From: Puniceicoccaceae bacterium 5H
GTDB taxonomy: Bacteria; Verrucomicrobiota; Verrucomicrobiia; Opitutales; Oceanipulchritudinaceae
Direction of reading: 5' to 3'
Assembly: GCA_009772895.1 (NCBI GenBank)
Contig: WOUP01000026.1
Coordinates: 1-42,297, forward strand
DNA: 42,297 nucleotides
Below the pieces are notes generated by a model. That model was given only the letters and a program-made list of their open reading frames with translations. It ran no database searches and was not told the origin of the DNA. Positions 4,692 to 31,231 of this stretch are shown piece by piece. How positions within the stretch are numbered: position 1 is the first letter of the stretch; the number at the start of each line of letters is the position of its first letter. A program made the translations under genes and the position numbers.

Positions 4692-4711
4692 AGGAAGCAG
4701 CTCCGAAAGCG

Positions 4712-6308: not shown

Positions 6309-7358
6309 CTAAACCAACGCCACCGATCGATAAACCTTACGGTGCTGATCGGCAATGACCGGCCACGAAAACGCGTCCAACATCCGCTGCCGGTTTGAGC
6401 ACCCCACGGCACTTAAACGCGCCCGCGCTACGGCCATCTCGCGGAGATAGGCCACCGCTTGCTCCGGCTCGCGCCGGGGAAACCAGCAGTTGCCATGGGC
6501 TCCCTCCAGATAGCCGCGCAAGGCGGGCAGATCGGTTGAAACGACCGCCAGGCCGCAGCTGGCAGCCTCCAGCAGCGCGTTATTGGCGGTAGCGCCGGAA
6601 AGGGGAAGAAAGAGCACATCGCTCGAACGGTAAAGATCCAGCAACTCATTATCGGAGATGCCCGAAATACCGCAAAACTGCTCGTGGTTGCCGGTTTCGT
6701 CGCGCAAGCGAGCCACGATTTCCGGGCGGCTCAACACCGTAAACCGGATATCCGGCAGCACGGCGGTCGCGGCGTGAAAGATCTCCAGCCAGCTCTCCCA
6801 GTCGCGCAACCACGCACCCACCGTCACCACCTCCAAAGGCGCATTGGACGGTCGGCGGTCTCCACCTTGAGTGGGCGCAAAACGCTCGGTATCAATGCCG
6901 TGCGCGATAGGAATGATGCGATCATGGCCGAAAAGGCGGGCATAGGCCTCCTGCTGGGCCGGATCGAGGATGATGATCGCCGGAGCCTTCCGGGCGGCGG
7001 CGAAAAAGGGCTGACGCCGCTCGCGCTCTTCTTCCAGGCGTTCCGGCGGCTGGTGCACGGTCAGCACATATTGGCCGCGTCTGGGCAGCCAGCCCTGCTG
7101 GACGGTAGCTTCAGCGTAAATATGGTGCAGCACGGCGCCCGGGTAACGCGCCAGCAAAGACCGCAAGCGCACCTCCTGCATCCAGAAGAAGCTGCGGACC
7201 TTCTTGAATCCCATGCGGTAGAGCGGCGCCGGCAGCCCTTGCTCGGCCCGCACGACCGTGCACTCCGGCAGGTAGTCGAGCAGGCGCGCGTAAGACGAAT
7301 ACCTCCCGTGATGCGGAAAGCAGAAGCCGTACAAAACCGTCTGGCTGTCTTCACTCAT
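6309..7358 (-). CDS. GT4-like glycosyltransferase
   Basis: A protein of 349 residues with the GT-B plan. The C-terminal half carries a family 4-type donor-binding segment: VLFLPLSGATANNALLEAASCGLAVVSTDLPALRGY, where the Glu before AASCG fits the E of the EX7E motif. The N-terminal half starts directly with YGFCFPHHGRYSSYARLL, a short Rossmann-like start. The ATG overlaps the stop of the GT2 gene by four bases (ATGA), so the genes are translationally coupled. Probably a cytoplasmic or membrane-associated enzyme adding one sugar to the lipid-linked repeat unit. Donor and acceptor cannot be read from the sequence. Confidence 0.8.
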   Translation of the reverse strand: MSEDSQTVLYGFCFPHHGRYSSYARLLDYLPECTVVRAEQGLPAPLYRMGFKKVRSFFWMQEVRLRSLLARYPGAVLHHIYAEATVQQGWLPRRGQYVLTVHQPPERLEEERERRQPFFAAARKAPAIIILDPAQQEAYARLFGHDRIIPIAHGIDTERFAPTQGGDRRPSNAPLEVVTVGAWLRDWESWLEIFHAATAVLPDIRFTVLSRPEIVARLRDETGNHEQFCGISGISDNELLDLYRSSDVLFLPLSGATANNALLEAASCGLAVVSTDLPALRGYLEGAHGNCWFPRREPEQAVAYLREMAVARARLSAVGCSNRQRMLDAFSWPVIADQHRKVYRSVALV

Positions 7359-8278
7359 GCTTTGACGGCCCTAGTCAGCTCACGAAAGCGGCACAGACCG
7401 CGGCGACGCCCCCGCGCGATCTTGCGCCGTGCCTGCGCGGTGAAGCCTTTCAACAAGATCCCGCTGGTCCATTCTTCCAGCAGGTACCGGAGTTCGCGTC
7501 CTTTGCTCGGCTGCGCGAGTCCACGTACCATCAAGAGCAATTCCTCCGTCTCGGAGCCCTTTTCCATCAGGCGCAGCATGTAATCCTTTTGCACCCGACC
7601 GGCAGGGATCAGGTGGGTCATGCGCAATTGCGGGAACCGGCCCATGCCATAACCGAGGTCGCAGGCACAAAAACCGAGATCGGTGTCTTCCGAACTGGCC
7701 AGGCTGGCCCCCTTGCGGCCCAATCCGCGACGCAACTCACTGGTCTCGAGTTGCTTCATGAATTCTTCGGCCACCTGACGCCGCACCATCATGCCGGCCC
7801 CACAAGGGCTCACCCACGGCTCATATACATTGCCCCAGCGCGGCTGCTCGAGCGAACACAGCGCGAGACGGCCCGTAAAAGGCAGCACATCCGGCTCAGG
7901 TTCGGACTCGAACTCGCCATCTATATGGCCGCCGATCGCCCCCATTTGCGGAAAGGTCTGAAACACCTGCAAGCCTTGCTCGAGGTAGTCCGGTGCCAGC
8001 ACGTTGTCATCGTCCACCATGCAGAATATCTCGCCCTTCGCCTCACGAAATCCGCGCAACCGGGCCGGCGTCAAACCCAACTGCTCCTCGAGCACGATGC
8101 GAGCATTGGGATGCCACGACAGATCGAAACGCCCTGCCAGAGGCTCCTTGGAAGCATTGTCGACGAGGATGAATTCCCATGTATCGAGGGGAAGCGTCTG
8201 GCGCTTCAGCCCCTCCAGCGTCCGGGTGAGAAATTCGGGCCGCGGATTATGGGCGCAGATGATGAGCGAGACTTTCAT
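7355..8278 (-). CDS. GT2 family glycosyltransferase
   Basis: A protein of 307 residues from the ATG at 8278, which overlaps the preceding stop in an ATGA; upstream in-frame starts are non-ATG and less likely. It begins MKVSLIICAHNPRPEFL, the classic family 2 opening. The nucleotide-binding region ends in EIFCMVDDDNVLAPDYL, a D-D-D version of the DXD metal site. SSEDTDLGF later fits the ED acid/base region. Single GT-A domain, no membrane segments. It sits between two other transferase genes with overlaps on both sides. An inverting transferase of the repeat-unit assembly; sugar unknown. Confidence 0.88.
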   Translation of the reverse strand: MKVSLIICAHNPRPEFLTRTLEGLKRQTLPLDTWEFILVDNASKEPLAGRFDLSWHPNARIVLEEQLGLTPARLRGFREAKGEIFCMVDDDNVLAPDYLEQGLQVFQTFPQMGAIGGHIDGEFESEPEPDVLPFTGRLALCSLEQPRWGNVYEPWVSPCGAGMMVRRQVAEEFMKQLETSELRRGLGRKGASLASSEDTDLGFCACDLGYGMGRFPQLRMTHLIPAGRVQKDYMLRLMEKGSETEELLLMVRGLAQPSKGRELRYLLEEWTSGILLKGFTAQARRKIARGRRRGLCRFRELTRAVKA

Positions 8279-9408
8279 GAGTGAGACAGGGGCGTGCCCA
8301 AGGCGGACCACGGTTCCGCGTTGCGTTCGCAGATGCGGCGCACCTCCTGCAGACCGGGCTTGAGAATCGAAAAACCTTCTACGGCAGGCAGGCAGTAGCC
8401 GGGAATGTCATAGAGAAGTGGAAAATAGAGCAGGCAGCTCGACATAAGCGAAGCCACACCGCTCAAACCGCTGCCCCCGTAAGCCACCTCGGCGGGTACC
8501 AAATCGGCCTGCGGCTCCCAGATCAGGCGGGATGAGGCCACCTTCAGCACCAGATAATCGCTGCAAAAGGCCGGCATCCGAGGATGCGGCTTCCAGACGA
8601 CCTGATAACCGGAATCGATCATGGAGCGAAAGAGTTCCACCGTCAGCTCCAGCACCTCCTGGTAATGTAAGCGCAACGGCCAGAGTAGATTGTCTCCCAG
8701 CACCAGAATGGTCGGCTCACGGTAGACAGGCGTCTCAGCCCCCGCAAAACGCGCGTAGCGGTCGATCTCTTCACGGATAAGCGCCTGCGGGATCGCGGAG
8801 ACCGCCACGCCCTGCCCCACCGCAGGCGGCACGGTCTCCGTCAGGATGCCGTGGAAGCAATCGACGGGCGGCGCGGATTTCATCAGAGCATTCAGGGATT
8901 TCCGGTAGGCAAAGCCGCTCAAACGGCGCAGTTGCTCAAAATCGCCCCGACGCACCCGAGGGCCCAGGATCTGACGGGCCAAAGCACCCCGCGGAGCATC
9001 TGATTCCATCGCAAAGTCTTGGGTATAGGAATGCAGCCCCTCTTCGAAGACCTGAAACGAAGCCTGCGGGAACAACAGGTGCAGCGTACCCGCAATCGTC
9101 GTCCCGGGGTACGCCAGCCAGACCTCCCCTGCCTCCAGGCGCCGCGCCACCACAAACGCGATCAGATCGTCCCGTGCCCGGATGTCGCCCAGCGCGGTCA
9201 AGTCCAGCACCTCGCCCCCGGGGAAGTAGGCTTCACACAACCGCAGGAGCAGCTGATGCAGTCTGGAGCCCCGCGTGGCACCGGTGAGTAGCAGCTTCCA
9301 GCGGGAAGCGTCCTCAAGCTCGCCGTGGCGCCGCCGGATCGCCGCGCATGCGACGATCAGCTGCCAGGGGCCATTGAAGGCCAGGAAATGAACCGGGGCG
9401 TTTGCCAT
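8275..9408 (-). CDS. Polysialyltransferase-like glycosyltransferase (sialyl motifs)
   Basis: A protein of 377 residues from the ATG at 9408, 13 bases after the preceding stop; a TTG at 9474 would overlap that gene. It carries the three bacterial sialyltransferase signatures in order: D/E-D/E-G as FEEGLHSY (residues 121-128), HP as WKPHPRM (H275-P276), and the serine motif as SLMSSCLLYF (S323-S324). Families GT38, GT52, GT80 and GT97 share these, and the overall look fits the PF07388 polysialyltransferase group. It shares PTIL.LGDN, PAEVAY and LSGV.S..SS with the protein at 10574-11740, so the two are paralogues. Expected to transfer a CMP-activated acid (sialic acid or Kdo) to the growing glycan. 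The nearby neuB and neuA genes fit this. Confidence 0.72.
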   Translation of the reverse strand: MANAPVHFLAFNGPWQLIVACAAIRRRHGELEDASRWKLLLTGATRGSRLHQLLLRLCEAYFPGGEVLDLTALGDIRARDDLIAFVVARRLEAGEVWLAYPGTTIAGTLHLLFPQASFQVFEEGLHSYTQDFAMESDAPRGALARQILGPRVRRGDFEQLRRLSGFAYRKSLNALMKSAPPVDCFHGILTETVPPAVGQGVAVSAIPQALIREEIDRYARFAGAETPVYREPTILVLGDNLLWPLRLHYQEVLELTVELFRSMIDSGYQVVWKPHPRMPAFCSDYLVLKVASSRLIWEPQADLVPAEVAYGGSGLSGVASLMSSCLLYFPLLYDIPGYCLPAVEGFSILKPGLQEVRRICERNAEPWSALGTPLSHS

Positions 9409-9421
9409 CTCGCGATACGGC

Positions 9422-10561
9422 CTACGACCGCCCTCCTGATTGCCCGGACAACAGAGCCAGTAGGCGATGCCCAAAGACCTCAGCCGGGTGCGCGGGCACG
9501 CGTTCGCGAATGTGAGTGTAAGCCCGCTGGCCCATGCCCCTCAAATCTGCACGCGCCTGCCAGGCGCGTTCGAGCGCCTCGTCCAACGCCCGCACATTGG
9601 GGCTGGCGGCAACCAAGCCGTCGACATTGTCCTGCATCAACTCCGCGTTACCGCAGACATCCGTCACGATACATGGGCGGCCCCGCATCATCGCCTCGAC
9701 GATCACGATCGGCAGGCCCTCCTGACGACTGGGCAGCAGCAGCGCGTGATGCTCTTGCCAGATGCCATCGACGTCGGATACGTGCCCCTTGAATTGCACA
9801 CGGTCCAACTTCCACTCTCGGGCGAGGGCCTCCAGCTGTTGCCGACAAGGGCCGTCGCCATAAAAATCGACCGACAAATCCCGCTGCCGCCACTTTTCCT
9901 GTGCCAGCACATCGAGGATCAAGTCGCAGCCCTTATGCTTATTGGCGAGGCGCCCCACAAAGGCCAGCCTCAACCCGCTCGTTTCCGGCCACGTAAACGG
10001 CGTCTCCCGCGAAACCTGATAGGGGTTGCGCACCACTTCATCCACCGGCGGGTGCGCGACAAACTGCCGGAAGGCCACCCGCTGATTGGCCTCGCTCACC
10101 CAAAACGCTGCCGCGGCCTGGTTGAGGGTGGCGCCGACCCGCTGGGCCAGCGGATCATCCGGCCAGACGGTCTCCAGCACCGTATGCGCCACATGCACGT
10201 AGGGGATCCCGAGCTGTTGCCCCGCCTCGGTCCAGGCGAAAGGCGGAATCTGGTAACCGTTGTTGATGACAAACAAGTCGGGACGGACCTGCGCGAGATA
10301 CTTGGCCGGGGCCGGCGAGACCATATACTCTGGCTGGCGCACGAGGCGGAACCATTTGGGCAGACGACGCCAATGGCCGACCGTGACGCCCGCCTCCCGC
10401 AAGCGCTGGATCCCCGGGATCGTAACGCCGGGGCGCGCGAAGGTGCAGGCATGGACGTCATGCCCCTGCTGTTGCAGCCACTGAGCCGTCTCGGCCCACA
10501 GCAACTCGCTGCCGCCCCAGAGGGCACCGTCCATCACGCTGAGAAAGAGAAAACGAGGCAT
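9422..10561 (-). CDS. GT4 family glycosyltransferase
   Basis: A protein of 379 residues beginning MPRFLFLSVMDGALWGGSE, with the glycine-rich loop of family 4 enzymes after beta-1. The C-terminal domain shows LRLAFVGRLANKHKGCDLILDVL, then LLLPSRQEGLPIVIVEAMMRGRPCIVTD, where the two glutamates (E before GLP and E before AMM) form the EX7E donor site. A full-length GT-B enzyme with retaining chemistry expected. It lies between the two paralogous sialyltransferase-like genes with gaps of 12-13 bases, so all three probably act on the same repeat unit. The leader just before the ATG is pyrimidine-rich (CTCTTCTCT) rather than a Shine-Dalgarno. Confidence 0.88.
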   Translation of the reverse strand: MPRFLFLSVMDGALWGGSELLWAETAQWLQQQGHDVHACTFARPGVTIPGIQRLREAGVTVGHWRRLPKWFRLVRQPEYMVSPAPAKYLAQVRPDLFVINNGYQIPPFAWTEAGQQLGIPYVHVAHTVLETVWPDDPLAQRVGATLNQAAAAFWVSEANQRVAFRQFVAHPPVDEVVRNPYQVSRETPFTWPETSGLRLAFVGRLANKHKGCDLILDVLAQEKWRQRDLSVDFYGDGPCRQQLEALAREWKLDRVQFKGHVSDVDGIWQEHHALLLPSRQEGLPIVIVEAMMRGRPCIVTDVCGNAELMQDNVDGLVAASPNVRALDEALERAWQARADLRGMGQRAYTHIRERVPAHPAEVFGHRLLALLSGQSGGRS

Positions 10562-10573
10562 AGAGAAGAGCGA

Positions 10574-11740
10574 TTAGGAAGGAGCGCGATCGGTCCTTTG
10601 GGCTGCATGCGCGGCCGGGAGCCTGGAAATCTCGGGAATGTGAGCTTCTGAGAGATCCAGCACCTCCTCGAGTTGCCGGGTCAACTCGATCTCCTCCCGG
10701 GGGAAGGGAAAGCGGTAGCTGGGGATGCCAAAGAAGCGCGGAAAGTAGAAGCAGGCCGAGGAGAGCATGGAGATCACGCCCGAGAGGCTGGGCACGGCGT
10801 ACGCCACCTCCGCCGGGGCCATGTCGATATCCGGTGCCCGGTAAAACCGCTGTCCCTGGAAACGTGCATCCAGCCGCTCTGAAAGGTGGGCTGCCGCCCG
10901 CGGGTGCGGCTTCCAGTAGACATCGTAACCCAGATCGAGCACGTGCTGCAGCCAGTCGAGCGTCAATTCGAAGACTTCCTCGGCCTTGTCTCCCATGATC
11001 GAGTGAAGGTTGTCGCCGAGGAACAAGATCGTGGGCCGCTCGAAAACCGGCGGCGTATAGCCCAGCAGCTCACGGTAGGCGTCGACTTCCGCCTGCAAGA
11101 CATCTGTCTGGATCTGATGCTGCGGCAAGTGGCGCGTATAGTCCGGCAGGAGGTCGTTCAACAGGCCATAGTAGCCGGTCACCGGCAGCGGATTGCGAAA
11201 CTGGATCCAGCGGATGAGTCGCCGCCCTAGCGGCCCCGTCAGACGCAGCAGTGGCTGGAGCCCCGAACTCGACAGCAGCGGGCCCAGCTGCCGGGCCGCC
11301 CACACCTGATTGGCCGAGGGCGTGAAACGCGGCAGCGTTGAGAACGAGGGCGCGTAAGTGACCAATCCGTCTTCTACCGCCCAGTTTTGACACTGGGGCT
11401 GAATGATGTGAAGCGCGCGCGACTGTTGCTCGGTTGGGAAACAGGACCAGATAGCCTCAATCCGCGCGCCCCGACGCTGCTGCAGGTTTACGAAGAAGGC
11501 GTAGGTCGCGTGCTGCCAGAACTCCTGGTGGCGTAGCTCGAGGACTTCCACCCCCGGAAAGGCTTGCACCGAGAGATCGACCAGTCGTTGCAAAAAGGCA
11601 TCGGTCGAGCGCCCGCCGCTCACGATCACCACCCATTCCTCCGGCGTGACGCGTTCGCCATGCTGAGCCAGCGCCGCACGCAGCAGAATATACTGCCACG
11701 TGCCGGTTACCCAGAGGATTTTGAGACCCTTGCTCGCCAT
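10574..11740 (-). CDS. Polysialyltransferase-like glycosyltransferase (sialyl motifs), second copy
   Basis: A protein of 388 residues with the same signatures as its paralogue at 8275-9408: AVEDGLVTYA (E123-D124-G125), YWKPHPRAAAH (H279-P280) and SMLSSACFYF (S327-S328). The start KGLKILWVTGTWQYILL resembles the opening of PF07388-type polysialyltransferases. It lies directly downstream of neuB, which strongly suggests a CMP-nonulosonate donor. Two diverged copies separated by a GT4 gene imply two different acceptors or linkages, not simple redundancy. A CMP-Kdo transferase is the main alternative, since this locus also makes CMP-Kdo and some Kdo transferases share the GT-B fold. Confidence 0.74.
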   Translation of the reverse strand: MASKGLKILWVTGTWQYILLRAALAQHGERVTPEEWVVIVSGGRSTDAFLQRLVDLSVQAFPGVEVLELRHQEFWQHATYAFFVNLQQRRGARIEAIWSCFPTEQQSRALHIIQPQCQNWAVEDGLVTYAPSFSTLPRFTPSANQVWAARQLGPLLSSSGLQPLLRLTGPLGRRLIRWIQFRNPLPVTGYYGLLNDLLPDYTRHLPQHQIQTDVLQAEVDAYRELLGYTPPVFERPTILFLGDNLHSIMGDKAEEVFELTLDWLQHVLDLGYDVYWKPHPRAAAHLSERLDARFQGQRFYRAPDIDMAPAEVAYAVPSLSGVISMLSSACFYFPRFFGIPSYRFPFPREEIELTRQLEEVLDLSEAHIPEISRLPAAHAAQRTDRAPS

Positions 11741-11774
11741 GTTGGTGATCCATCGACCCAGGCGGCAACGCGCT

Positions 11775-12659
11775 CTAGCGCGGCTGCCACTTCAGTTTCT
11801 TGCGCTGTACCTCCTCGATCGGGAGCACTTCGGCCTGCTTGTAAGCGAGGGCCTGGTGCGTCGCGCGCAAGTCGCGGCAGAGACGGCGGATGCCGTCGGG
11901 CTCCAGCGAGGCTGCGTGGTCGGTGCCCTTCCAGGTGCGGTCAAGCGTGTAGTGGCGTTCAATCCACTCCGCGCCGAGCGTATAACCGGCGATATCGGCG
12001 GCGATGCCCAGATGGTGCCCGGAAAAGCCGATGCTCTTCACGCGGCTGGCAAATTGCTCGCGCAGACGCACGATCTCAAGCAGGCAAATGTCTTCGAACG
12101 GCACCGGATAGCCCGAAGTGCAGGCGTAGAGGATCAGGTCCTTCCCACGTCCACGCTCTTCGAAGAACGAAACGATCTTGTCCTCCTCCTCGTGCGTGGT
12201 CATGCCAAACGACAGGTGGATTTCGCCGGCGAAGTCGGAGCACAGGTAATCCAGCATCTCCCAATGCATGTTACAGGCAGAGGGGATCTTGATCAGCTCG
12301 GGCTCGAGCGGCGCGATCTCCTTGGCTGAGGTGACGTCCCAGACCGAGGTGCTGTAGACGAGGCCGAACTCCTCACACCATTCCTTCAACTGGCGGTGCT
12401 GGTCGACGCTCAACTCGAGGTATTCGCGGTGTTCGCCGTAGGTGTCGCCATAGGCGTGGATCGGGTTCGGGTGGGGGGCATTGTATTGCTCCGGGGTGAG
12501 CAGTTCGCGCGGGTTGCGCTTCTGGAACTTCACCACGTCGGCCTTGCAAAAGATGGCGGCGGTCGAGATCAACTCGCGCGCGATGTTCATGTCGCCCTTG
12601 TGGTTACAGCCCACTTCGGCGATAACGCGCGGGGTACGGTATTCGGTCGGTAAGCTCAT
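11775..12659 (-). CDS. neuB: N-acylneuraminate (nonulosonate) synthase, short form
   Basis: Condenses phosphoenolpyruvate with an N-acylmannosamine-type sugar (or its 6-phosphate) to a nine-carbon acid. The TIM-barrel signatures are clear: VIAEVGCNHKG (residues 12-22), VVKFQKR, LIKIPSACN, IGFSGHHLG and IERHYTLDR...GTDHAASLEPDG. The protein is 294 residues from the ATG at 12659 and ends just after the barrel. It lacks the C-terminal SAF/antifreeze-like domain of typical NeuB (about 340-350 residues), and only 34 bases separate its stop from the next gene, so no domain has been split off. It follows neuA-HAD by 35 bases. The exact product (Neu5Ac, Kdn, legionaminic or pseudaminic acid) cannot be told from sequence alone. 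Confidence 0.85.
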   Translation of the reverse strand: MSLPTEYRTPRVIAEVGCNHKGDMNIARELISTAAIFCKADVVKFQKRNPRELLTPEQYNAPHPNPIHAYGDTYGEHREYLELSVDQHRQLKEWCEEFGLVYSTSVWDVTSAKEIAPLEPELIKIPSACNMHWEMLDYLCSDFAGEIHLSFGMTTHEEEDKIVSFFEERGRGKDLILYACTSGYPVPFEDICLLEIVRLREQFASRVKSIGFSGHHLGIAADIAGYTLGAEWIERHYTLDRTWKGTDHAASLEPDGIRRLCRDLRATHQALAYKQAEVLPIEEVQRKKLKWQPR

Positions 12660-12694
12660 GACGATACAACAGAGAGGTGTTAGGTGAGTTAAAG

Positions 12695-13861
12695 TTACTT
12701 CAGCAGCAGGTCGCACAACTCACGGATCGCACCGTGGCCGCCTGCGCGGGAAAGAACGAGATCGGCGGCATCCTTGGCCTCCGGATAGGCATCGGCCACC
12801 GCGACTCCGCAACCGGCGCGGCGCAGGCAGTCGACGTCGTTGAGGTCGTTGCCGACGTAGATCAGCTGCTCCCAGGAAAGGCCGCGCTCCTGCAGCCACG
12901 CCCCGATAGCGGCAGGCTTGTCGTCGATACCCTGCATCACGGGCAGCTTCAGCTTGCGCGCCCGGGCCGAAACGACCGGATTCTGCTCCTTGGAAACAAT
13001 CATCAGCTCCAGCCCGGTTTTTTTCAACGCGCCCAGCTGCAGGCCGTCCGAACGGTTGCAGGCCACGGACTCGATGCCGTCCTGATTGACCCACACGCGG
13101 TTGTCGGTAAAAACGCCGTCGAAGTCGAACAGCACCGCCTTGAGGTCCTCGGGGAACGGCGCATTGGCGGCATCCTGCTTCGCGTATTGGGCCAGCGCTT
13201 CGCAGACGGCAAAGTCTTCGGGATCGTCGATCTCCCAGGCGCGCTCGGCCGGGACCGGATAGATGACGACATGCCCGAAAAAGCGGTGCCGATGCTGGCG
13301 AAAGCCCATCACACGCATGGCGTAGATGGCACCCGTCTCGCGGTATTCCGGCTCGCGATCCTGTCGGCGCGGACGAAAGCTGCGGTCGTGATTCACCCCC
13401 ACCGCGTTGCCTTTATCGTCGGCCTTCCAGAGAAAACTGTGGCTGGGCGTGGCGCTAAAAGCCGCATCCGCCTGGCGCTCCCGCATCAGGCGCAGGGTTG
13501 CATCGATATCCTCCGCCGTCGTAAGCGGCGAGGTGCATTGCAGGAACACCAGCACCTCCGGCGCTTCCCCCTGACAACGCTCGATCTCATCCAACGCGTG
13601 CAGCAAGGCCGACTCGGAGCTGGCGGTATCGTTGGCCAGATCCGCCGGGCGCATCACCACTTCGGCGCCCCACTCGCGGGCCTTGCGCGCGTAATCCTCG
13701 TCGTCGGTCGAGACGTAAACGGCATCCACCCCCTGGGCGAGACGCGCCGCCTGAATGCAGCGCTGCAAGATGGGCTGGCCGCCCACCGGGCGCAGATTCT
13801 TGTGCCGGATCCCCTTGGATCCGCCGCGAGCAGGTATGATGGCAACGGTACGAGCGTTCAT
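12695..13861 (-). CDS. neuA: CMP-sialic acid synthetase fused to KdsC-like HAD phosphatase
   Basis: A protein of 388 residues from the ATG at 13861. Residues 1 to about 230 are an acylneuraminate cytidylyltransferase: VAIIPARGGSKGIRHKNL (residues 6-23) binds CTP, VFLQCTSPLTTAEDI follows, and REPEYRETGAIYA is also typical. Residues about 240-388 are a HAD phosphatase of the KdsC type: VLFDFDGVFTDN (catalytic D246 and D248), then VSKEQNP, and YVGNDLNDVDCL for the Mg site. The same order is found in animal CMAS proteins and some bacterial NeuA. The HAD part may remove the 9-phosphate from a sialate-9-P made by NeuB, or serve as the KdsC otherwise missing from this locus. Eleven bases after the GT8 gene. 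Confidence 0.9.
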   Translation of the reverse strand: MNARTVAIIPARGGSKGIRHKNLRPVGGQPILQRCIQAARLAQGVDAVYVSTDDEDYARKAREWGAEVVMRPADLANDTASSESALLHALDEIERCQGEAPEVLVFLQCTSPLTTAEDIDATLRLMRERQADAAFSATPSHSFLWKADDKGNAVGVNHDRSFRPRRQDREPEYRETGAIYAMRVMGFRQHRHRFFGHVVIYPVPAERAWEIDDPEDFAVCEALAQYAKQDAANAPFPEDLKAVLFDFDGVFTDNRVWVNQDGIESVACNRSDGLQLGALKKTGLELMIVSKEQNPVVSARARKLKLPVMQGIDDKPAAIGAWLQERGLSWEQLIYVGNDLNDVDCLRRAGCGVAVADAYPEAKDAADLVLSRAGGHGAIRELCDLLLK

Positions 13862-13872
13862 GAGCGGCAAAA

Positions 13873-14739
13873 TTACGATTTGGAAGGCCAGACCCTGAGC
13901 TTTTGTAACAAGCGCTTGCTAAGGTAGCAGACTTCCCAAGCGTTACTGGAGACTGGGCGTTTTATCTCTGGAAACCACTTCTGCCCGTTGGCCCTTACAA
14001 AGTAGGGCCACCACATATGGTACAACGGAATATAGTGGCGCTCAAAGCGATGCAGTCTCGGCCTTTCCCATGGCTTGGTGTCCACGTAGTGGAGGAAGCA
14101 GATCTTGTCGAGATCGAAGAACTGAGGGAAGGCGTGCTTCAGGCGCTTGACTGTGTTCCACTTCAAATCGCAAAGGTGGAGGGGATCAGAGCTGCGCTCA
14201 CGAAAGTAAAAGCTCAGGACTTGCTGGTCGCCAAAATCAAAACTGCGCCCGCAATTGAAGTAATAGTCGAGCACGTCGTTGAAGAGCTCTTCGCTAGGTT
14301 CATAGACAAAAAAGCCTGAATTGATCATCGGCCCTCCCGCCGTGTCTTCCGGCGCGGAATTACCGTATGCCGGGGCTGCGGAAAAGTGCTCCAGCTCTTC
14401 GATCCCGTCCAGGGGGTTGAGGCAGAGCATGTCGCTGTCCACAAACGCGACCTTGCCTTGCACCGGGAGCTTCAGCACCAGCAACTTCTTGAAGGTAAAT
14501 ATAAACAGGTCGCGATACTGAGGGGCCAGGGCGGGCACGTCTCCGAGGCTTTGACGCGGCAGAAATTCGATCGAAATGCCTACCTGCTCAAGCGATTCGA
14601 TGTGCCGTTTCTCCAGAGGGTCTTCATGAATGACATAAAAGCGGGTATCGGCAGGGAGGTTCCCGTTTTCCTTCATGCTCTGGAGCATGGCCAAGAGCCC
14701 CGGGATGTAGGGGGCATCAGCAATAGTGACGAAATTCAT
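13873..14739 (-). CDS. GT8 family glycosyltransferase
   Basis: A protein of 288 residues that begins MNFVTIADAPYIPGLLAMLQS, the family 8 opening. It holds VAFVDSDMLCLNPLD, with the DXD metal/UDP site at D101-S102-D103. It also shows MINSGFFVYEP and FGDQQVLSFYF, the second conserved block (N/D-Q for the acceptor). FLHYVDTKPWERP matches the family's C-terminal HF.G..KPW-type ending (H, KPW). A retaining GT-A enzyme with a UDP-sugar donor, often UDP-Gal or UDP-Glc in LPS core or capsule synthesis; UDP-GalA or UDP-Xyl made here are also possible donors. It follows the GT4 gene at 14745 by five bases. Confidence 0.87.
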   Translation of the reverse strand: MNFVTIADAPYIPGLLAMLQSMKENGNLPADTRFYVIHEDPLEKRHIESLEQVGISIEFLPRQSLGDVPALAPQYRDLFIFTFKKLLVLKLPVQGKVAFVDSDMLCLNPLDGIEELEHFSAAPAYGNSAPEDTAGGPMINSGFFVYEPSEELFNDVLDYYFNCGRSFDFGDQQVLSFYFRERSSDPLHLCDLKWNTVKRLKHAFPQFFDLDKICFLHYVDTKPWERPRLHRFERHYIPLYHMWWPYFVRANGQKWFPEIKRPVSSNAWEVCYLSKRLLQKLRVWPSKS

Positions 14740-14744
14740 TTGGG

Positions 14745-16016
14745 TTACAGCTTCCCGGATGGTCTCACAGCTTCGAGAGCCGCACGTTGGACGGTTTTTT
14801 TGAATTTGTCGTAGGTAAACTCACGAAGGACGAGCTCCCGAGCTGCTGCAGCCATTTGCTGCCGGAATGGAGCGTCCGTCAGCAAACGGATACACCCTTC
14901 CGCAAATTTCGCATCGTCTTCAGCATGCCAGATCTCTTTCCTGTGGGTGGCCAGACCGGAATAGGCTTCGAAAGCGTGAGGTGCAGCCACTACCACACGG
15001 CCATAGGACATTGACTCGACAATCTTGATTTTGGAACCTCCGCCCCAATAGACTGGGCAAATACTAACGTGAGCACGAGCATATTCGGGCTTCAAGTCTT
15101 CGACGAAGCCAACGAGGTCAACGCCTGGAACATGACTCCATTTTGCTCTGTCGCGATCCGCCATGCCCGAACCGACAATCCGAAGGCGTGCATTCTCCAC
15201 TCGTAATCTTACCAACGGCCAAACGTGTTTAACAAAATGATCAACTCCTTGGTTGTTGCCTGTGGTGGCAATACGACCCACAAACAGCAGCGTGGGCGCA
15301 TAATCGTTTCCCGCATCCTCCAGCGCTTCACCCACTCCTTCTACTGCGAAGTGATGAGGGATGTTGGGTAGAATCGACGAATTCGCGCCCGGAAACCTGA
15401 TTTGGTCTACAGGATTAACAAAGAACACCTCCTTGGCCGGTTGGATGGCCTGCGCGATCGCACGCTCCACCCTTGGCCAGCGCCACTTCCAAGTCAGGCG
15501 GTTGTACACCAGCGAGCTTCTCGGTAGCTTCACCCGCATGATCTGTGAGTCCACATCGTCCACGTCCTGGATAATCGGAACGGGGCTCTGTGCATCTAGA
15601 AAGCCCCCAACGGCAGGTGAGCGCAGAAAACGGCCAAAGACCAGGTCATACCCTCCCTTGAGCAGAATCTCGCGCGCGGGGCCTGCCACTTCAGGGTGTG
15701 GCAAATAGCGCAGGGGCTCGCGGTATATCTCGTGGGCAACATGTTTCTGCTTTCGCGTGAGCACCTTCGACAACGCCCGCAAGGGCTTTGGCAATAATGG
15801 TTCTTTAAGTTCGACGCATCCTGCAAATCGGCCGGGCCACAACGCTTCGAACGGACCCACTTTTTGGTATGCTTCTGCCTGGGACTTCCAGCAAATGAGC
15901 AGCAAATGAACTTCCGCGAACTCAGAGAGTGCCCGAATAACCAGATCGGTGCGTTGACCGCCGCCTGCCACCAAAGCCGGAGGAGGAGGTGCGTCAGTAA
16001 CCAGAAGGATCTTCAT
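14745..16016 (-). CDS. GT4-like glycosyltransferase
   Basis: A protein of 423 residues. MKILLVTDAPPPPALVAGGGQRTDLVIRAL is a GT-B start with a glycine-rich loop. The C-terminal domain reads TLLFVGRIATTGNNQGVDHFVKHV, then CPVYWGGGSKIKIVESMSYGRVVVAAPHAFEAY, the GSG.K.K..E.M..G.PVV variant of the family 4 donor site. It is more AT-rich than the neuA/neuB genes to its left, marking the start of the compositionally distinct stretch. Gaps are 5 bases to the GT8 gene and 42 bases to the gene upstream. Adds one residue of the repeat unit; sugar unknown. Confidence 0.85.
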   Translation of the reverse strand: MKILLVTDAPPPPALVAGGGQRTDLVIRALSEFAEVHLLLICWKSQAEAYQKVGPFEALWPGRFAGCVELKEPLLPKPLRALSKVLTRKQKHVAHEIYREPLRYLPHPEVAGPAREILLKGGYDLVFGRFLRSPAVGGFLDAQSPVPIIQDVDDVDSQIMRVKLPRSSLVYNRLTWKWRWPRVERAIAQAIQPAKEVFFVNPVDQIRFPGANSSILPNIPHHFAVEGVGEALEDAGNDYAPTLLFVGRIATTGNNQGVDHFVKHVWPLVRLRVENARLRIVGSGMADRDRAKWSHVPGVDLVGFVEDLKPEYARAHVSICPVYWGGGSKIKIVESMSYGRVVVAAPHAFEAYSGLATHRKEIWHAEDDAKFAEGCIRLLTDAPFRQQMAAAARELVLREFTYDKFKKTVQRAALEAVRPSGKL

Positions 16017-16058
16017 GAATCAACGTAGAGAAAAACTGCAGCAGACCGGGCAACTAGG

Positions 16059-16889
16059 TTAATGCTTGAGTGTCCGAGTCGGCAGCCCGATCGCGTCAAA
16101 GTCAACGCGCTCAATCTTTGGAAGATAGGTATTGCGTGTCGCATTTTTAATCCAGCCTCCTTGAGCCCTCAAAAATTCGTCACAGACCGCGTAAGCTTCC
16201 TCTACCATCATCATGTCTGGCGGCAAAAAGCATTTTCCCGCGTAATAATTGTTCAGAAAATGATTACCCTCTCCCTTATAAGATCGATAGACATCCGTTA
16301 CACCTTCAACCTTTTGTACATTCCGGACCGTATGATCGACACCGTAAAGATAGATGTGCCTCATTCCCAAAAAATAAGCTAATTGAATGGCCGCGACGGG
16401 TGAAGTTCCCCCCGCACAGACCCCATCGAAAGGCCAGGTCTGAAATTGCAGAGGCCAGTTCCCATTTGGAAACCACAAAAACTGCTCTTTCATTCGTGGC
16501 ACTCTGCTGGAGGAAAAGAAGACGGGGCAGTCATTTACACGCACCATCTCCACCCCGAAATCGGCTATCATCTGCCGATCACTACTCAGATAAAACGTGG
16601 GGCGAAAGTCCGTCTTGCCATAAGCCAAATAGAATCGATTAAAGCAAAAAGAAATCTCCGACTTCAGACTATCAAGATCTGCGAATCGCACGCTAGGTCC
16701 ATTGCCCACCATAAAGCAAGTCCGCCCCTCAAACTTACCTCGCAGGGCCAACAAGTCGCGGTGGTAACGCGAGAGCGCAAATCCGCTTCGCGTAGCTTTT
16801 GCTGATAAGCGATAAAAGCTATCGCTTGTCACTCGCCTAGCTTTTCGCAACCGATAGGAGAGGGTAAGAATTTTACCTTTAATGCTCAT
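16059..16889 (-). CDS. DUF115 / GT42-sialyltransferase-like protein
   Basis: A protein of 276 residues. A basic N-terminus is followed by FEGRTCFMVGNGPSVRFADLDSLKSEISFCFNRFYLAYGK (GNGPS at 62-66), GVCAGGTSPVAAIQLAYFLGMRHIYLYGVDH (158-186) and GEGNHFLNNYY (H210). GNGPS, the FNRFY block, the TS before a helix, IYL.G.D and a late H are shared, in this order, by DUF115/MptE-like proteins and by CAZy family GT42 sialyltransferases (Campylobacter Cst-II: GNGPSL, CNQFYF, TSG, IYLSGIDF, SHY). I infer a CMP-nonulosonate transferase or a related nucleotide-binding glycan enzyme; homology search would decide. AT-rich codon use, unlike the genes outside the cassette. Confidence 0.6.
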   Translation of the reverse strand: MSIKGKILTLSYRLRKARRVTSDSFYRLSAKATRSGFALSRYHRDLLALRGKFEGRTCFMVGNGPSVRFADLDSLKSEISFCFNRFYLAYGKTDFRPTFYLSSDRQMIADFGVEMVRVNDCPVFFSSSRVPRMKEQFLWFPNGNWPLQFQTWPFDGVCAGGTSPVAAIQLAYFLGMRHIYLYGVDHTVRNVQKVEGVTDVYRSYKGEGNHFLNNYYAGKCFLPPDMMMVEEAYAVCDEFLRAQGGWIKNATRNTYLPKIERVDFDAIGLPTRTLKH

Positions 16890-16924
16890 AATCGATCTCT
16901 ACTTAAGGATACTTCCAAGCCTCC

Positions 16925-17656
16925 CTACAGGTCCTTGTAGTCCATGAAGTCGTTGACCTGAATGGAGTTCAGGTACCAGACACTGGCGGAAATATCGATC
17001 CAGGTATGGATGTCGCGGCCGGTGACCCAGGGGCGTTCGACCATCTTGCACTTCTGGCCCAGCCATACCCAGGGACTCGGCCCTTTCTGCTCGTAGGCGC
17101 ACTGCTTCTTGAAGGCCCAGATGCCCTGATCGTAAAAATAAACCGAAGGATAACTCTGGCGATTGGAGGACACTTCCAGATCGTGAAAGGCCTTCATGTA
17201 ACCCTTGTCATCCTGTACCATGGCCCGATACGGGTGGTCGTCCTGCGCCTTCCAGACTGTTGCCACGGAGTCGCAGTCTTCCTCGTCGAGCATGCGGAAG
17301 CATTTGTCGATCACGCCCGGTGTGACCTGCACCGTGTTGCCCAGCAGCACGATGACGTTTTCCAGCTCGGGGTGCATTTTCTCTACCTGCTCGACCGCGT
17401 ATTTGATCACGTCGCGGTGTTGGCTCGTCGGCGTAGCGAGTTCAGGCGGGCGGATCAGGATTTCCGCCCCTTCCTTTTGGGCGAGGTTTCCAATCAACTC
17501 ATCTTCCGTCGAGACGAAGATCCCATCGGTCTCCGCCGAAAGCTTTGCCGCACGCAACGGATAAAGCATGACCGGCACCCCTAGAATCGGGATGACGTTT
17601 TTGTTCTGCACGGTGGTATTCCCACCTTTAGCCGTGAGGATGACAGCGTTTTTCAT
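16925..17656 (-). CDS. Divergent acylneuraminate cytidylyltransferase-like protein
   Basis: A protein of 243 residues from the ATG at 17656, which overlaps the preceding stop (ATGA); an in-frame start three codons upstream is less likely. It shows the NeuA-type fold: VILTAKGGNTTVQNKNVIPILGVPVMLYPLRAAK, then GIFVSTEDELI and GAEILIRPPELATPTSQHRDVI. The normal P-A-R-x-G-S-K loop is replaced by TAKGGNTTVQNKN, and the usual Q-x-T-S-P is LLGNTVQVTP. So it either activates another alpha-keto acid or sugar, or has lost the standard specificity. It differs clearly from the neuA at 12695-13861 and lacks a phosphatase domain. It is GC-richer than its two neighbours. Confidence 0.72.
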   Translation of the reverse strand: MKNAVILTAKGGNTTVQNKNVIPILGVPVMLYPLRAAKLSAETDGIFVSTEDELIGNLAQKEGAEILIRPPELATPTSQHRDVIKYAVEQVEKMHPELENVIVLLGNTVQVTPGVIDKCFRMLDEEDCDSVATVWKAQDDHPYRAMVQDDKGYMKAFHDLEVSSNRQSYPSVYFYDQGIWAFKKQCAYEQKGPSPWVWLGQKCKMVERPWVTGRDIHTWIDISASVWYLNSIQVNDFMDYKDL

Positions 17657-18891
17657 AGGCCGCATAACTTCGAATAGAGTTTGGCGTATTGTTCGCGGTA
17701 GGCTTGCCGCGAATAAAGAGCGTGCGTGCCCTTGGCGAGTTCTTCCCGTCGAACCTCAAAGGCATCTGCTTTTTCTTCCATCCAGTTCTCGATCTCGGCC
17801 GCAAGAAGGTGCGTATCCTGCCTTTCAGGATCGAAAGGAGTGCCAACCGAGGGATCGATCAATGCCTGTAGCTCGCGCACTGTTGGAGCAAAACCGATCA
17901 CCGGAGTTCCTGCGCACAAGGACTCGATATACACAATACCAAAGCTTTCCGCGCGACTCGGCCCAACAAAGAGCCGACTTCGAGCAACAATCTGATAATT
18001 TTCTTCCTCAGACACCTTACCGAGAAACTCAACCTTCAGTTGATGCTCCTCCGCATAGGCTTCATATTCTCCCCGCAAACGCCCTTCACCGATCAACTTC
18101 AGCCGATAGTTCTTACCCCGATCCTTGAGCAACTTGAGCGCTTGCAGCAACAGATCCACTCCCTTTCGATGGTCATAGAGCAGGCCGATAAACGAGATGT
18201 AAGGCTCCTCCCCACCTTTCGGGCTCAGCTCCGATCGTGTGTAATTATCGGACACAAAATAGGGGATCATTGAGGAGCGCTCAGCCAAGTGCGGAAACTT
18301 CTCCAGTGCCGCTTGCTTTTGCCAACGGCTTACCCAAACAATATGATCATACTGATCTAGAAAAGGGCTATACGTAGATGAGTGGTTTGTTAGAAGCTTC
18401 GCCCCGCCCCAGCCTTCTGGCAAGCATTTCACAACTGGTGATGCGGTCTGATGCACATGAAGCAGGTGCGGCCTAAACTCCTCCATATGCATACGCATCA
18501 CCTCTTCAAGGTTACCATAGGAGGCCTTAAGCATCCGATCTATAGTCTGGAGGGGCCTGCGCAGAAAGGCTTTTTTGCGTTGCAAGATAAATGTCAGACT
18601 GCGTTTTGGCTTTGGAAGAGTAATTGTGGCCAGTAGACGAGCCTTCCCTCCACCATCCCAAATGATATCGTGAGAAGATGCCAGCTTTTCATCAGGTACT
18701 AGCTTACCCCAACTCAGAGGAAGGATGCCGACCTCGGCGCCCTCATCGATTAACATCGATGTCACTTCTCCAGCTGCCTTGTCTTTGCCCCCTCCCATCG
18801 GATTAAGGGCAAAGCCCTCAATGGCTGGATGAACCGCTATCACCCGCAACTGATTTAACTTTGGAAGCGAAACCATATGCCTTTTAATCAT
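17653..18891 (-). CDS. GT4 family glycosyltransferase
   Basis: About 412 residues. The C-terminal half has PYISFIGLLYDHRKGVDLLLQALKLL, RLKLIGEG and RLFVGPSRAESFGIVYIESLCAGTPVIGFAP, a clear EX7E donor site. The N-terminal half has GGGKDKAAGEV, the family's glycine loop, and LLHVHQTASP. The start is uncertain: ATGs at 18927 (26-base overlap with the sulfotransferase gene), 18891 and 18876 are all possible, and only the last has an AAAAGG element a few bases upstream. I used 18891, which avoids the overlap. Its stop overlaps the start of the divergent neuA. Low GC like the sulfotransferase gene next to it. Confidence 0.85.
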   Translation of the reverse strand: MIKRHMVSLPKLNQLRVIAVHPAIEGFALNPMGGGKDKAAGEVTSMLIDEGAEVGILPLSWGKLVPDEKLASSHDIIWDGGGKARLLATITLPKPKRSLTFILQRKKAFLRRPLQTIDRMLKASYGNLEEVMRMHMEEFRPHLLHVHQTASPVVKCLPEGWGGAKLLTNHSSTYSPFLDQYDHIVWVSRWQKQAALEKFPHLAERSSMIPYFVSDNYTRSELSPKGGEEPYISFIGLLYDHRKGVDLLLQALKLLKDRGKNYRLKLIGEGRLRGEYEAYAEEHQLKVEFLGKVSEEENYQIVARSRLFVGPSRAESFGIVYIESLCAGTPVIGFAPTVRELQALIDPSVGTPFDPERQDTHLLAAEIENWMEEKADAFEVRREELAKGTHALYSRQAYREQYAKLYSKLCGL

Positions 18892-18901
18892 CCAGTCTGC
18901 T

Positions 18902-19825
18902 TCAGCGCGATTGCACATCTTCCTCAAGCCAATAAGAAAGATCGCGATTCAACAATCGGGAGAGATCATAGACATCCTCCGCATAGTAATCACGCAACTC
19001 ATGCACAATCGATTGCTTAAGAGGAGGAAACTGATAAAAGTTATCATAGAGCCCCTTGATCGCTGGAATGCTTTTCATCGCTGATTTCAGTGGTCCGAAA
19101 ACGCCCAACAAAGACTTGATACGATCCAGAGGGTTCACTTGGTTTGCCGCATTTTTGACCGTGACATTATGTCGTTTACCGACGTCCGGCTTAAACCCTG
19201 GGTCGATACCAAGAAATGTATAGACATTGCGCATGACATCTACCGTGTTCACCTTCAAATCTTCCTGCAAACATACCCAAATTTGCTCTCGCGGGAAAAT
19301 ATCAAAATAAGCCTTTAGCTGCTGGTAATACAGACCGACTGTCTTGTAATAGTAAGAGTGCCAATAGCCCTCCTGAATGCGCTGACTCTCCAACGCCAGC
19401 GCCTTACCAAAATCCTTCTCAGTCTCATAGCCCACCTGCAACTGAAATAGAAAATGAGAATAAGCCCGTTCTATTGGGTTACGCAACACTGCTATAATCT
19501 TCGCGCCGGGATTATACTGGTATATTTCCTGGGCCACATTAGGGGCACAAATATAACCAGCAGACCCTTCCGCTACAACAGTCTCCTCATTCGCCCCCTC
19601 GAAGAGTGCCTCATAACCCTCAAGCGTCCAGCGAGAACGGTGTAGAAAACCGCTTCTCTTATTTTCCGTCATCTTGAAATTCAAACCTCCATCTTTAAGC
19701 AGGAAGAATTTGGGTTCTTTCAACGGGCTGAAATATACGTCAGGATGCTCCGCCAGATAGCTACACATAGCCGTGGATCCGCATTTCATCCCACCTATGA
19801 CATAGAGATTTGGCTTTTTCATCAT
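18902..19825 (-). CDS. PAPS-dependent sulfotransferase
   Basis: A protein of 307 residues. LYVIGGMKCGSTAMCSYLAEHP (residues 7-28) is the 5'-phosphosulfate loop. IIAVLRNPIERAYSHFLFQ (110-128) is the 3'-phosphate site with its Arg and Ser. It matches the Sulfotransfer_1 family (PF00685), of the kind that sulfates carbohydrates. It would move sulfate from PAPS onto the surface glycan. The PAPS-forming genes cysC, cysD and cysN lie in the same locus at 28241-31106. The start has a plausible AGGACGAGG Shine-Dalgarno, unlike most genes here; tandem ATGs at 19825 and 19822 are both usable. AT-rich composition suggests it arrived with the cassette. Confidence 0.88.
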   Translation of the reverse strand: MMKKPNLYVIGGMKCGSTAMCSYLAEHPDVYFSPLKEPKFFLLKDGGLNFKMTENKRSGFLHRSRWTLEGYEALFEGANEETVVAEGSAGYICAPNVAQEIYQYNPGAKIIAVLRNPIERAYSHFLFQLQVGYETEKDFGKALALESQRIQEGYWHSYYYKTVGLYYQQLKAYFDIFPREQIWVCLQEDLKVNTVDVMRNVYTFLGIDPGFKPDVGKRHNVTVKNAANQVNPLDRIKSLLGVFGPLKSAMKSIPAIKGLYDNFYQFPPLKQSIVHELRDYYAEDVYDLSRLLNRDLSYWLEEDVQSR

Positions 19826-19843
19826 AACCCTCGTCCTATACGC

Positions 19844-21094: not shown

Positions 21095-21130
21095 AACGAG
21101 AGAAACTAAAAGTTGGGACCGTGCGTGGGC

Positions 21131-22027: not shown

Positions 22028-22075
22028 AGAGAGAGACGGGTAGAGCAATACCGGCGGCAAACAGCCGACCGGCGA

Positions 22076-29506: not shown

Positions 29507-29551
29507 TTGCGGAAAAATTTCTGGGTGATCGTTGACGGTTTGCCCTGCGGC

Positions 29552-30463: not shown

Positions 30464-30489
30464 GATAGAAAGGGTTAAAGTATGGTTTG

Positions 30490-30506
30490 TGAGGTTGTCA
30501 ACCTCA
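30490..30506 (-). promoter_or_regulatory. Perfect palindrome with TTGACA between cysC and cysD
   Basis: TGAGGTTG, one base, CAACCTCA: perfect 8-bp arms around a single central base, partly overlapping the cysC stop. On the minus strand its centre contains TTGACA (plus-strand 30496-30501), and a loose TTTAAC lies 16 bases further towards cysD. It may be an internal promoter/operator for cysD-cysN. The -10 match is weak. Confidence 0.35.
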
Positions 30507-31106: not shown

Positions 31107-31231
31107 TTCAGGAAACATTGCGGGCGGCCACGCTGCCGCCCTTGGTCGCTTTCCCCTTTTCCGGCGAAAAACCAATCGAAGACCAGACTAAACTGCGAGA
31201 TACGGCTGCCATGGGGCGGCCGGAGAGAGGA

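Follow-up and report, generated by a model that had tools for sequence, protein, structure and literature searches.

A candidate surface polysaccharide locus of a verrucomicrobial genome combines a probable nonulosonate pathway with two distant PF07388 transferases

Contig WOUP01000026.1 of Puniceicoccaceae bacterium 5H carries a gene cluster for the probable synthesis of a sialic-acid-like sugar, together with two paralogous transferases of the polysialyltransferase family PF07388, here called PST1 and PST2. The window analysed is this whole contig (C35; 42,297 bp); the genome comprises 40 contigs and 4.10 Mb. The best explanation of the locus as a whole, to which we give a probability of roughly 55%, is that it makes and exports a surface polysaccharide with a nonulosonic acid, most likely Kdn (2-keto-3-deoxy-D-glycero-D-galacto-nononic acid). 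The protein families, the fold of a third protein, the motifs, the gene linkage and the failure of NeuC and NanE to exceed their model cut-offs in the genome are known directly. Judged from sequence and from structural modelling, three enzymes look able to attach the sugar to a surface polysaccharide.

The initial annotation, made from the sequence alone, had placed neuB, a neuA-HAD fusion, a second neuA and genes for CMP-Kdo and PAPS (the cytidine monophosphate-activated form of 3-deoxy-D-manno-oct-2-ulosonic acid, and 3'-phosphoadenosine 5'-phosphosulfate) in one locus. The open reading frames that it named were all present where it placed them, on the minus strand, and the grouping was upheld by matches to PF03102, CTP_transf_3 and HAD (haloacid dehalogenase) models and by KdsA, CysN/D/C and KdsB-KpsF scores over NCBIfam cut-offs. 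The locus is a real, somewhat unusual combination of known parts. A literature search, outside which most subscription journals lay, listed no title on this locus or on Kdn in Verrucomicrobiota. The genomes used for comparison included one of the same genus (G016), one of the same family (G011), one of the same order (G347) and two of one other genus (G072 and G388); the window's own genome is G000.

Results

A probable NeuC-free nonulosonate pathway

The synthase of the locus matched PF03102 at 225 bits and was the single NeuB match in its genome. Its likelier start, judged from the G016 orthologue, is position 12659, and it carries PF03102 only, whereas E. coli K1 NeuB carries PF03102 and the SAF domain PF08666. 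According to a study of the meningococcal synthase, Arg314 of the SAF domain contacts N-acetylmannosamine (ManNAc) and is proposed to place the N-acetyl group (PMC6795526). The neighbouring gene encodes a CTP_transf_3 domain fused to a HAD domain. In the window's genome the best scores on the NeuC model TIGR03568 were 77.7-79 bits (cut-off 235.9), and no NanE match exceeded its cut-off (best 19.8 bits, cut-off 27). A NeuC encoded elsewhere in the genome was rejected as a candidate, both PF02350 proteins being wecB over cut-off.

Three features make Kdn more likely than N-acetylneuraminic acid (Neu5Ac): the absence of a SAF domain from NeuB, the fusion of cytidylyltransferase and HAD phosphatase, and NeuC and NanE scores that did not reach their cut-offs. 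The genes probably build a sialic-acid-like sugar, and our best guess is Kdn. The nonulosonate module with sialyltransferase-like glycosyltransferases described in the initial annotation was retained, and its sugar, left unnamed there, is read as Kdn rather than Neu5Ac. PMC6200933 states that similarity to BT1714 points to mannose-6-phosphate as the expected substrate, and Kdn-containing glycans are described from Streptomyces, Sinorhizobium fredii and Klebsiella K4 in PMC7845648.

NeuB-family matches were seen in 78 of 377 genomes of the phylum (E<=1e-20), which weakens the earlier suggestion that such a glycan would be unusual for Verrucomicrobiota. Window-type NeuB was found in 11 genomes (10 from the phylum search plus G016), eight of them with no NeuC over cut-off; in the remaining three NeuC was on other contigs, where it adjoined a second, longer NeuB in G142 and G384. 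Of the short or window-type NeuB places, 0 of 32 had a NeuC inside 10 kb; among the long places 12 of 29 did (Fisher 3e-5). This count covered 61 NeuB places in 40 genomes, namely 39 of the 78 NeuB-positive genomes, taken from the top of the list, and G016, which had no row there. Short NeuBs were those with an open frame of at most 330 residues; the 10 window-type places (at least 60% identity) were pooled with them, one having a 338-residue open frame. In G141, NeuC was found about 14 kb from a short NeuB, beyond the 10 kb limit.

Window-type NeuB (64-74% identity) also occurred with a NeuA-HAD fusion in two loci of Clostridia and one of Synergistales. The best model for the partner HADs was the Kdn-9-phosphatase model NF058599, at 169.8, 166.2 and 161.7 bits, just below its cut-off of 180. 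A motif listing covered 40 NeuB loci, of which L025 was mis-extended and not judged; the window-type NeuBs L027, L028 and L188 had no match to TWKGxDH as written. A second NeuB group, common among the fetched NeuB loci (loci among L029-L047), was mostly 273-305 residues long and had M(Y/W)GSDQ in place of TWKGxDH.

Several observations count against Kdn. The window HAD scored 80.5 bits on NF058599, below its own KdsC score of 102, and the G016 HAD scored 82.0 bits; with the window HAD so far from the cut-off of 180, Kdn is favoured, not demonstrated. The window NeuB scored 179.8 bits on the Neu5Ac synthase model TIGR03569 (cut-off 399.65) and 132 bits on TIGR03586, and since both scores fall far below cut-off the substrate of the synthase is not assigned by them. 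In G072 a below-cut-off match of the NeuC/WecB family (55.8 bits) lay about 10 kb from NeuB.

It is unlikely that the locus instead makes Neu5Ac or a different N-acyl nonulosonate, an unrecognised epimerase supplying ManNAc or ManNAc-6-phosphate and the PSTs acting as ordinary sialyltransferase-like enzymes. Of the two NeuB equivalog models TIGR03569 scores higher, a human-type 9-phosphate synthase can accept both substrates, and the genome encodes one AGE-family (PF07221) protein. That protein, however, looks secreted, its N-terminus being signal-peptide-like as judged by eye. The missing SAF domain, the below-cut-off NeuC and NanE scores and the lack of a NeuC inside the 10 kb limit for all 32 short or window-type NeuB places also argue against an N-acyl sugar.

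Conserved PF07388 paralogues beside NeuB

PST1 (44.6 bits, E 1.8e-11) and PST2 (57.7 bits, E 1.8e-15) both scored over the curated PF07388 cut-off of 23.3; E. coli K1 NeuS scored 152 bits. The D/E-D/E-G, KxHP and SS motifs were present in order in both, as in CAZy GT38: E122-E-G, K273-P-H-P and S323-S in PST1, and E123-D124-G125, K277-P-H279-P and S327-S in PST2. The earlier description of two paralogous glycosyltransferases with D/E-D/E-G, HP and SS signatures was therefore confirmed. Among 5000 residue shuffles, 0.06-0.08% gave the order [DE][DE]G ... KxHP ... SS, and 0 of the other 34 window proteins tested had it, so it is more than chance; the Pfam scores are stronger evidence than motif order for the family assignment. 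In the GT38 enzyme MhPST, as reported in PMC5517516, E153 of D/E-D/E-G is the catalytic base, K289 and H291 form part of the CMP site, and E323 binds the ribose. E311 of PST2 sits 32 residues after the HP histidine, like E323 after H291, a match of spacing and not of alignment.

The two paralogues share about 30-34% identity. Their G016 orthologues (52% identity for PST1, 60% for PST2) keep this order and flank the same GT4 glycosyltransferase gene, which places the duplication before the two species, with both copies kept since. E-(E/D)-G, KPHP, PAE and SS were retained in both paralogues of both species. An alignment of these four sequences, profile A1, matched 3 of 387 phylum genomes, the window's own included, with G016 outside the matches of that draw; PF07388 itself had matches in 3 of 17 genomes of the family.

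Linkage of PST homologues to NeuB was seen in G016 and also beyond the genus. In G072 and G388 roughly 5 kb separated a PST homologue from NeuB; the same loci encode NeuA and a HAD that shares 50% identity with the window HAD, and KdsA had no match beside these homologues in the 20 and 11.6 kb read. In G011, contig C74 carried NeuB and NeuA cut by the contig end, and the end of contig C10 carried a PF07388 gene (28.6 bits) beside a truncated HAD half. The NeuA-HAD halves at the two contig ends were complementary; the contigs probably adjoin, which would make the PST homologue there NeuB-linked as well.

Other results weigh against a nonulosonate-specific polysialyltransferase-like role. G072 and G388 belong to one genus and are not independent, and profile A1 had no match to the G011 PF07388 gene. 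A third PF07388 protein of the window's genome (G000:C13:131503-132756, or L013:9503-10756; 28.3 bits) adjoins a GT4 gene and had no NeuB or NeuA match in its 20 kb. No polysialyltransferase of the PDB was found from PST2 by sequence (E<=1) or by profile (E<=10). In hhalign, profile A1 aligned with K1 NeuS at E 0.087, over the KPHP-SS stretch, and no worse with KpsC (E 0.071); since NeuE (E 0.29) and KpsS (E 0.11) likewise gave weak local matches, the comparison did not discriminate among them. The PST2 model, built from two sequences, was poor (pLDDT 46.3, pTM 0.48), and its top Foldseek match, MhPST 5wc6/5wcn (GT38; E 3.6e-4), gives weak support. A scan of the genome contigs with the PST alignment returned 22 pattern matches and 0 confirmed relatives.

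A second alternative, also improbable, casts PST1, PST2 and the GT42-fold protein as Kdo transferases supplied by KdsA and KdsB-KpsF, with NeuB and NeuA-HAD serving another glycosyltransferase. CMP-Kdo synthesis is encoded in the same locus, the poor PST2 model had KrkA (GT140) among its leading fold matches, and genes for MptE, KdsB and KdsA are adjacent in several Bacillus-type loci. In the account of PMC12887879, (K/R)xHP is common to GT99 and GT107 Kdo transferases, and the KrkA nucleophile lies 34 residues before the HP histidine in a QxxxD motif; the PSTs come close to this spacing with a conserved acidic residue (D243 in PST2) that precedes their HP histidine by 36 positions. At that place, however, the Q of QxxxD is missing and one G016 copy has E for D. 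The best fold match of the same poor model was GT38 MhPST, and the PST homologues of G072 and G388 accompany NeuB, NeuA and a HAD with KdsA unmatched. The lipid A core is, moreover, a sufficient use for Kdo.

Least probable of all is that the PF07388 proteins are general polysaccharide glycosyltransferases with an unrelated nucleotide-sugar donor, alike through a shared fold only: PF07388 also matches M. jannaschii and M. acetivorans, the third PF07388 protein of the genome stands apart from NeuB and NeuA matches, and B. subtilis SpsB has DEG and HP motifs and is, as described in PMC7439481, not needed for transfer of legionaminic acid (Leg), but all four motifs persist in both paralogues of both species, and the homologues in G072 and G388 are linked to NeuB.

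A PF01973 protein with a GT42 fold

The protein encoded at 16059-16889 matched PF01973 (MptE/DUF115) at 35.8 bits (cut-off 34.6), the only family at E up to 1. A GT42 assignment by Pfam was rejected, as PF06002, which we take to be the Pfam GT42 model, was not matched. An AlphaFold model of the 276-residue protein from 60 sequences reached pLDDT 89.3 and pTM 0.88. Its top VIA-align rows were Maf 5mu5 (Z 14.2) and the sialyltransferases CstII 1ro8 (Z 12.5 over 181 residues, rmsd 3.6) and Cst-I 2p2v (Z 12.5), followed by M. jannaschii HPPK 8sd5 (10.9) and Pasteurella sialyltransferase 9c08 (10.2). GT29 sialyltransferases, at Z 8-9.3, were mixed with the unrelated SteA (9.2) and thiamine pyrophosphokinase (8.4). 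On this model the protein has a GT42 fold, like Maf and CstII/Cst-I; the GT42-like label given to it earlier holds for the fold and not for the Pfam family. A profile search of the PDB gave CstII in its first seven rows (E 0.003-0.005, weak alone). The likeness of the Maf pfam01973 domain to CstII was already published, in PMC11339370.

The GNGPS motif and N84 were conserved in PF01973 relatives. H210 was invariant in the 14-row alignment A4 and was not among the columns conserved at 90% or more in the 60-row alignment A6, which used 59 of 78 loci, those with complete ATG-started open reading frames of 220-330 residues. In the profile alignment H210 falls four residues before the catalytic histidine of CstII, His188.

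The 78 loci represent the best 80 of at least 544 matching stretches; the loci kept came from many phyla. Among them, 50 contained a NeuA or KdsB homologue, within 5 kb in 48. A CMP-ulosonate synthetase gene lay directly downstream of 24 of 100 PF01973 genes; the corresponding counts for controls from the same loci, which were only genes similar to named window proteins, were 0/37 for GT4/GT2, 0/29 for SDR/UGD (short-chain dehydrogenase/reductase and nucleotide-sugar dehydrogenase), 0/20 for Wzt and 1/10 for NeuB. This gene neighbourhood backs the PF01973 protein as a candidate CMP-ulosonate transferase. In the NeuB locus of G208, whose NeuB is 71-72% identical to that of the window, Wzt- and Wzm-like genes and NeuA accompany a PF01973-like protein encoded 5 bp from NeuB, which at 31.6 bits falls just below the cut-off of 34.6.

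Several Bacillus-type loci carry PF01973, KdsB and KdsA genes side by side, and the donor of the PF01973 protein may accordingly be Kdo or a nonulosonate. KdsA and KdsB homologues adjoined PF01973 proteins in L135, L144, L146-L149, L171 and L198 (Bacillus, Neobacillus, Paenibacillus and Rossellomorea); Kdo of lipid A is not expected in Gram-positive bacteria. Two more PF01973-like proteins, 34-35% identical to that of the window, are encoded in tandem in the same genome (G000:C40:10049-12635; L124).

NeuA2, sulfation and a variable segment

The divergent second neuA of the initial annotation, NeuA2, was present and conserved (CTP_transf_3, PF02348, 50.4 bits; 90% identical in G016), and the idea that it belongs to the same pathway as NeuB was weakened. 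Its loop reads KGGN where the NeuA of the fusion, NeuA1, has RGGSK. K-G-(G/N)-N was common to five aligned homologues (G016, G347, G287, G021 and G325), and an R-GNN form of the loop occurred in three PF01973 loci. Five other genomes had a NeuA2 match of at least 44%, of which only G021 was among the NeuB-positive genomes; G347, G287, G325 and G085 were not among the NeuB matches (E<=1e-20; both samples 377, assumed to be the same draw). NeuA2 is conserved and may possibly not serve the NeuB product. It is not tied to the PF01973 gene either, because that gene is missing from the G016 locus, where NeuA2 is conserved.

Across 60 kb of the G016 locus there was no match at 1e-6 to the PF01973 gene, the GT8-like gene or the sulfotransferase. 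GC content was 0.48-0.57 at 14-22 kb (14001-22000) and 0.61-0.67 elsewhere in the window. Together, the unmatched genes and the fall in GC make a strain-variable segment likely, and the PF01973 gene and the sulfotransferase, unmatched in G016, are not core genes. NeuA2 keeps its 90% identity in G016 although it lies inside the low-GC stretch.

Since the sulfotransferase is not shared with G016, sulfation is only a possible strain trait, which weakens the suggestion of a sulfated glycan as a core feature. The sulfate activation genes were 85-92% identical in G016; CysDNC can also serve sulfate assimilation and cysteine synthesis. Both kinds of modification are known from environmental biomass. 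In granular sludge, nonulosonic acids including Kdn are reported together with sulfated polymers in PMC10483923, according to which bacterial pathways to sulfated polymers are not well known; nonulosonic acids in such sludge are also described in PMC8053191.

Organisation of the locus

All assigned genes, from about 2.3 to 34.9 kb, were on the minus strand (Table 1). Read in the direction of transcription, they include the nucleotide-sugar dehydrogenase, CysC, CysD, CysN, two SDR enzymes, MurB, KdsA, KdsB-KpsF and the Wzm/Wzt-type pair. The sulfotransferase, a GT4, NeuA2, the PF01973 protein, a further GT4, the GT8-like protein, NeuA-HAD, NeuB and PST2 follow, and after PST2 come a GT4, PST1, a GT2, a GT4, a membrane protein and an unclassified 835-residue protein. 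The last (2316-4823) matched 0 Pfam families at E<=0.001 and has a counterpart with 55% identity at the same end of the G016 locus. The GT8-like protein takes its name from GT8-type motifs.

The nearest NCBIfam models of the Wzt-type ATPase were teichoic acid and galactan export ATPases, below cut-off. Wzm-like genes adjoined Wzt in locus L107 and lay near it in L117. PF05159 (KpsC/KpsS) had 0 matches in the genome, and a KpsC/KpsS-type Kdo linker of the kind found in group 2 capsules was rejected on this ground. The CMP-Kdo synthetase is fused to a KpsF/KdsD-type isomerase in one 571-residue protein with 84% identity to G016.

Table 1. Features of the locus, with coordinates in the window, strand and basis of assignment.
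Feature	Coordinates	Strand	Basis
GT4-like glycosyltransferase	6309..7358	-	
GT2 glycosyltransferase	7355..8311	-	PF00535 67 bits
PST1, distant PF07388 (polysialyltransferase family) transferase	8275..9408	-	PF07388 44.6 bits; EEG/KPHP/SS
GT4 glycosyltransferase between the two PSTs	9422..10561	-	63% in G016, same place
PST2, distant PF07388 transferase	10574..11740	-	PF07388 57.7 bits; EDG/KPHP/PAE/SS
NeuB-family nonulosonate synthase without SAF domain, 294 aa	11775..12659	-	PF03102; TWKGxDH motif
NeuA-HAD fusion: CMP-nonulosonate synthetase and C0-type HAD phosphatase	12695..13870	-	DxD and GNDLND present
GT8-like protein	13873..14739	-	motif reading (DSD, HxxxxKPW); 0 Pfam families over cut-off
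GT4 glycosyltransferase, variable segment	14745..16016	-	
MptE/DUF115 (PF01973) protein, GT42/Maf fold; candidate CMP-ulosonate transferase; variable gene	16059..16889	-	PF01973 35.8 bits
NeuA2, divergent cytidylyltransferase	16925..17665	-	PF02348 50.4 bits; KGGN replaces RGGSK
GT4 glycosyltransferase, variable segment	17653..18927	-	
Sulfotransferase-family protein	18902..19825	-	PF00685 39.9 bits (cut-off 22)
Wzt-type ABC ATPase with C-terminal extension	19844..21094	-	PF00005
Wzm-type ABC permease	21131..22060	-	position beside Wzt and hydrophobic sequence; no Pfam match at 0.001
KdsB-KpsF fusion: CMP-Kdo synthetase and arabinose-5-phosphate isomerase	22076..23791	-	TIGR00466 193 bits, TIGR00393 301 bits, both over cut-off
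KdsA, Kdo-8-phosphate synthase	24516..25334	-	TIGR01362 353 bits (cut-off 314)
CysN, CysD, CysC, sulfate activation to PAPS	28241..31175	-	TIGR02034 578 bits, TIGR02039 440 bits, TIGR00455 213 bits, over cut-off
Nucleotide-sugar dehydrogenase (UDP-glucuronate supply likely)	33502..34908	-	TIGR03026 327 bits (cut-off 190)

Discussion

For the substrate, donor, linkage and product of the locus we infer the following scheme. The SAF-less NeuB would condense phosphoenolpyruvate with mannose-6-phosphate to Kdn-9-phosphate. As its domains and gene pairing suggest, the HAD half of NeuA-HAD would then remove the phosphate and the NeuA half would form CMP-Kdn. PST1 and PST2 would add the sugar to a growing chain by an inverting single displacement, as in MhPST, with E-(E/D)-G supplying the acidic base and KPHP binding CMP. 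The strain-variable PF01973 protein may add an ulosonate elsewhere in the glycan of this strain, and the Wzm/Wzt-type genes suggest ABC export without a KpsC/KpsS Kdo linker.

A wider and more tentative proposal is that PST1 and PST2 are Kdn-specific and have distinct roles, as priming and polymerising enzymes or in forming two linkages, and so represent a PF07388 system working on a NeuC-free Kdn pathway. The PF01973-like proteins of this kind (at least 544 stretches; loci from many phyla) might for their part form a large, mostly uncharacterised set of CMP-ulosonate transferases acting on Kdn, pseudaminic acid, Leg or Kdo, many of them in surface polysaccharide loci.

If the Kdn reading is right, a genus of Verrucomicrobiota has two PF07388 transferases that act on an N-acetyl-free sugar, which would offer a route to Kdn-type transferases. 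The signature of a SAF-less window-type NeuB with NeuA-HAD and no NeuC might then mark Kdn producers in genomes. The PF01973 result gives a testable function to a widespread family filed under the name of a pterin kinase.

The PSTs resemble the GT38 polysialyltransferases (MhPST 5wcn, K1 NeuS) in matching PF07388 over cut-off, in motif order and in having NeuB/NeuA and an ABC exporter nearby. They differ in their lower scores (45-58 bits, compared with 152 for K1 NeuS) and were not found in the PDB by sequence; their locus has two conserved paralogues, no NeuC and no KpsC/KpsS. The group 2 capsule locus of E. coli K1 likewise has an ABC exporter, CMP-Kdo genes, NeuB/NeuA and a PF07388 transferase, whereas here PF05159 is missing from the genome, NeuC is lacking, NeuB has no SAF domain and glycosyltransferases are more numerous.

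The PF01973 protein shares the fold, the GNGPS motif and the conserved Asn N84 with GT42 enzymes (CstII, Cst-I) and Maf (5mu5). Unlike them it is a PF01973 and not a PF06002 protein, of 276 residues with an N-terminal helix, set in a polysaccharide locus; judged by its length, it is without the extra domains of Maf. The polymers of granular sludge offer a parallel in environmental biomass, with Kdn and sulfated glycoconjugates, though in mixed communities, and the string 'verrucomicrob' occurs 0 times in the main text of that report (PMC10483923).

Compared with the Kdn pathway of Bacteroides thetaiotaomicron, the phosphatase and CMP-synthetase are fused in the window, and the window HAD falls below the NF058599 cut-off. 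The gene set of that pathway is BT1713-BT1714-BT1715. Likened by gene content, the two systems share a synthase, a HAD phosphatase and a CMP-transferase, and both do without NeuC.

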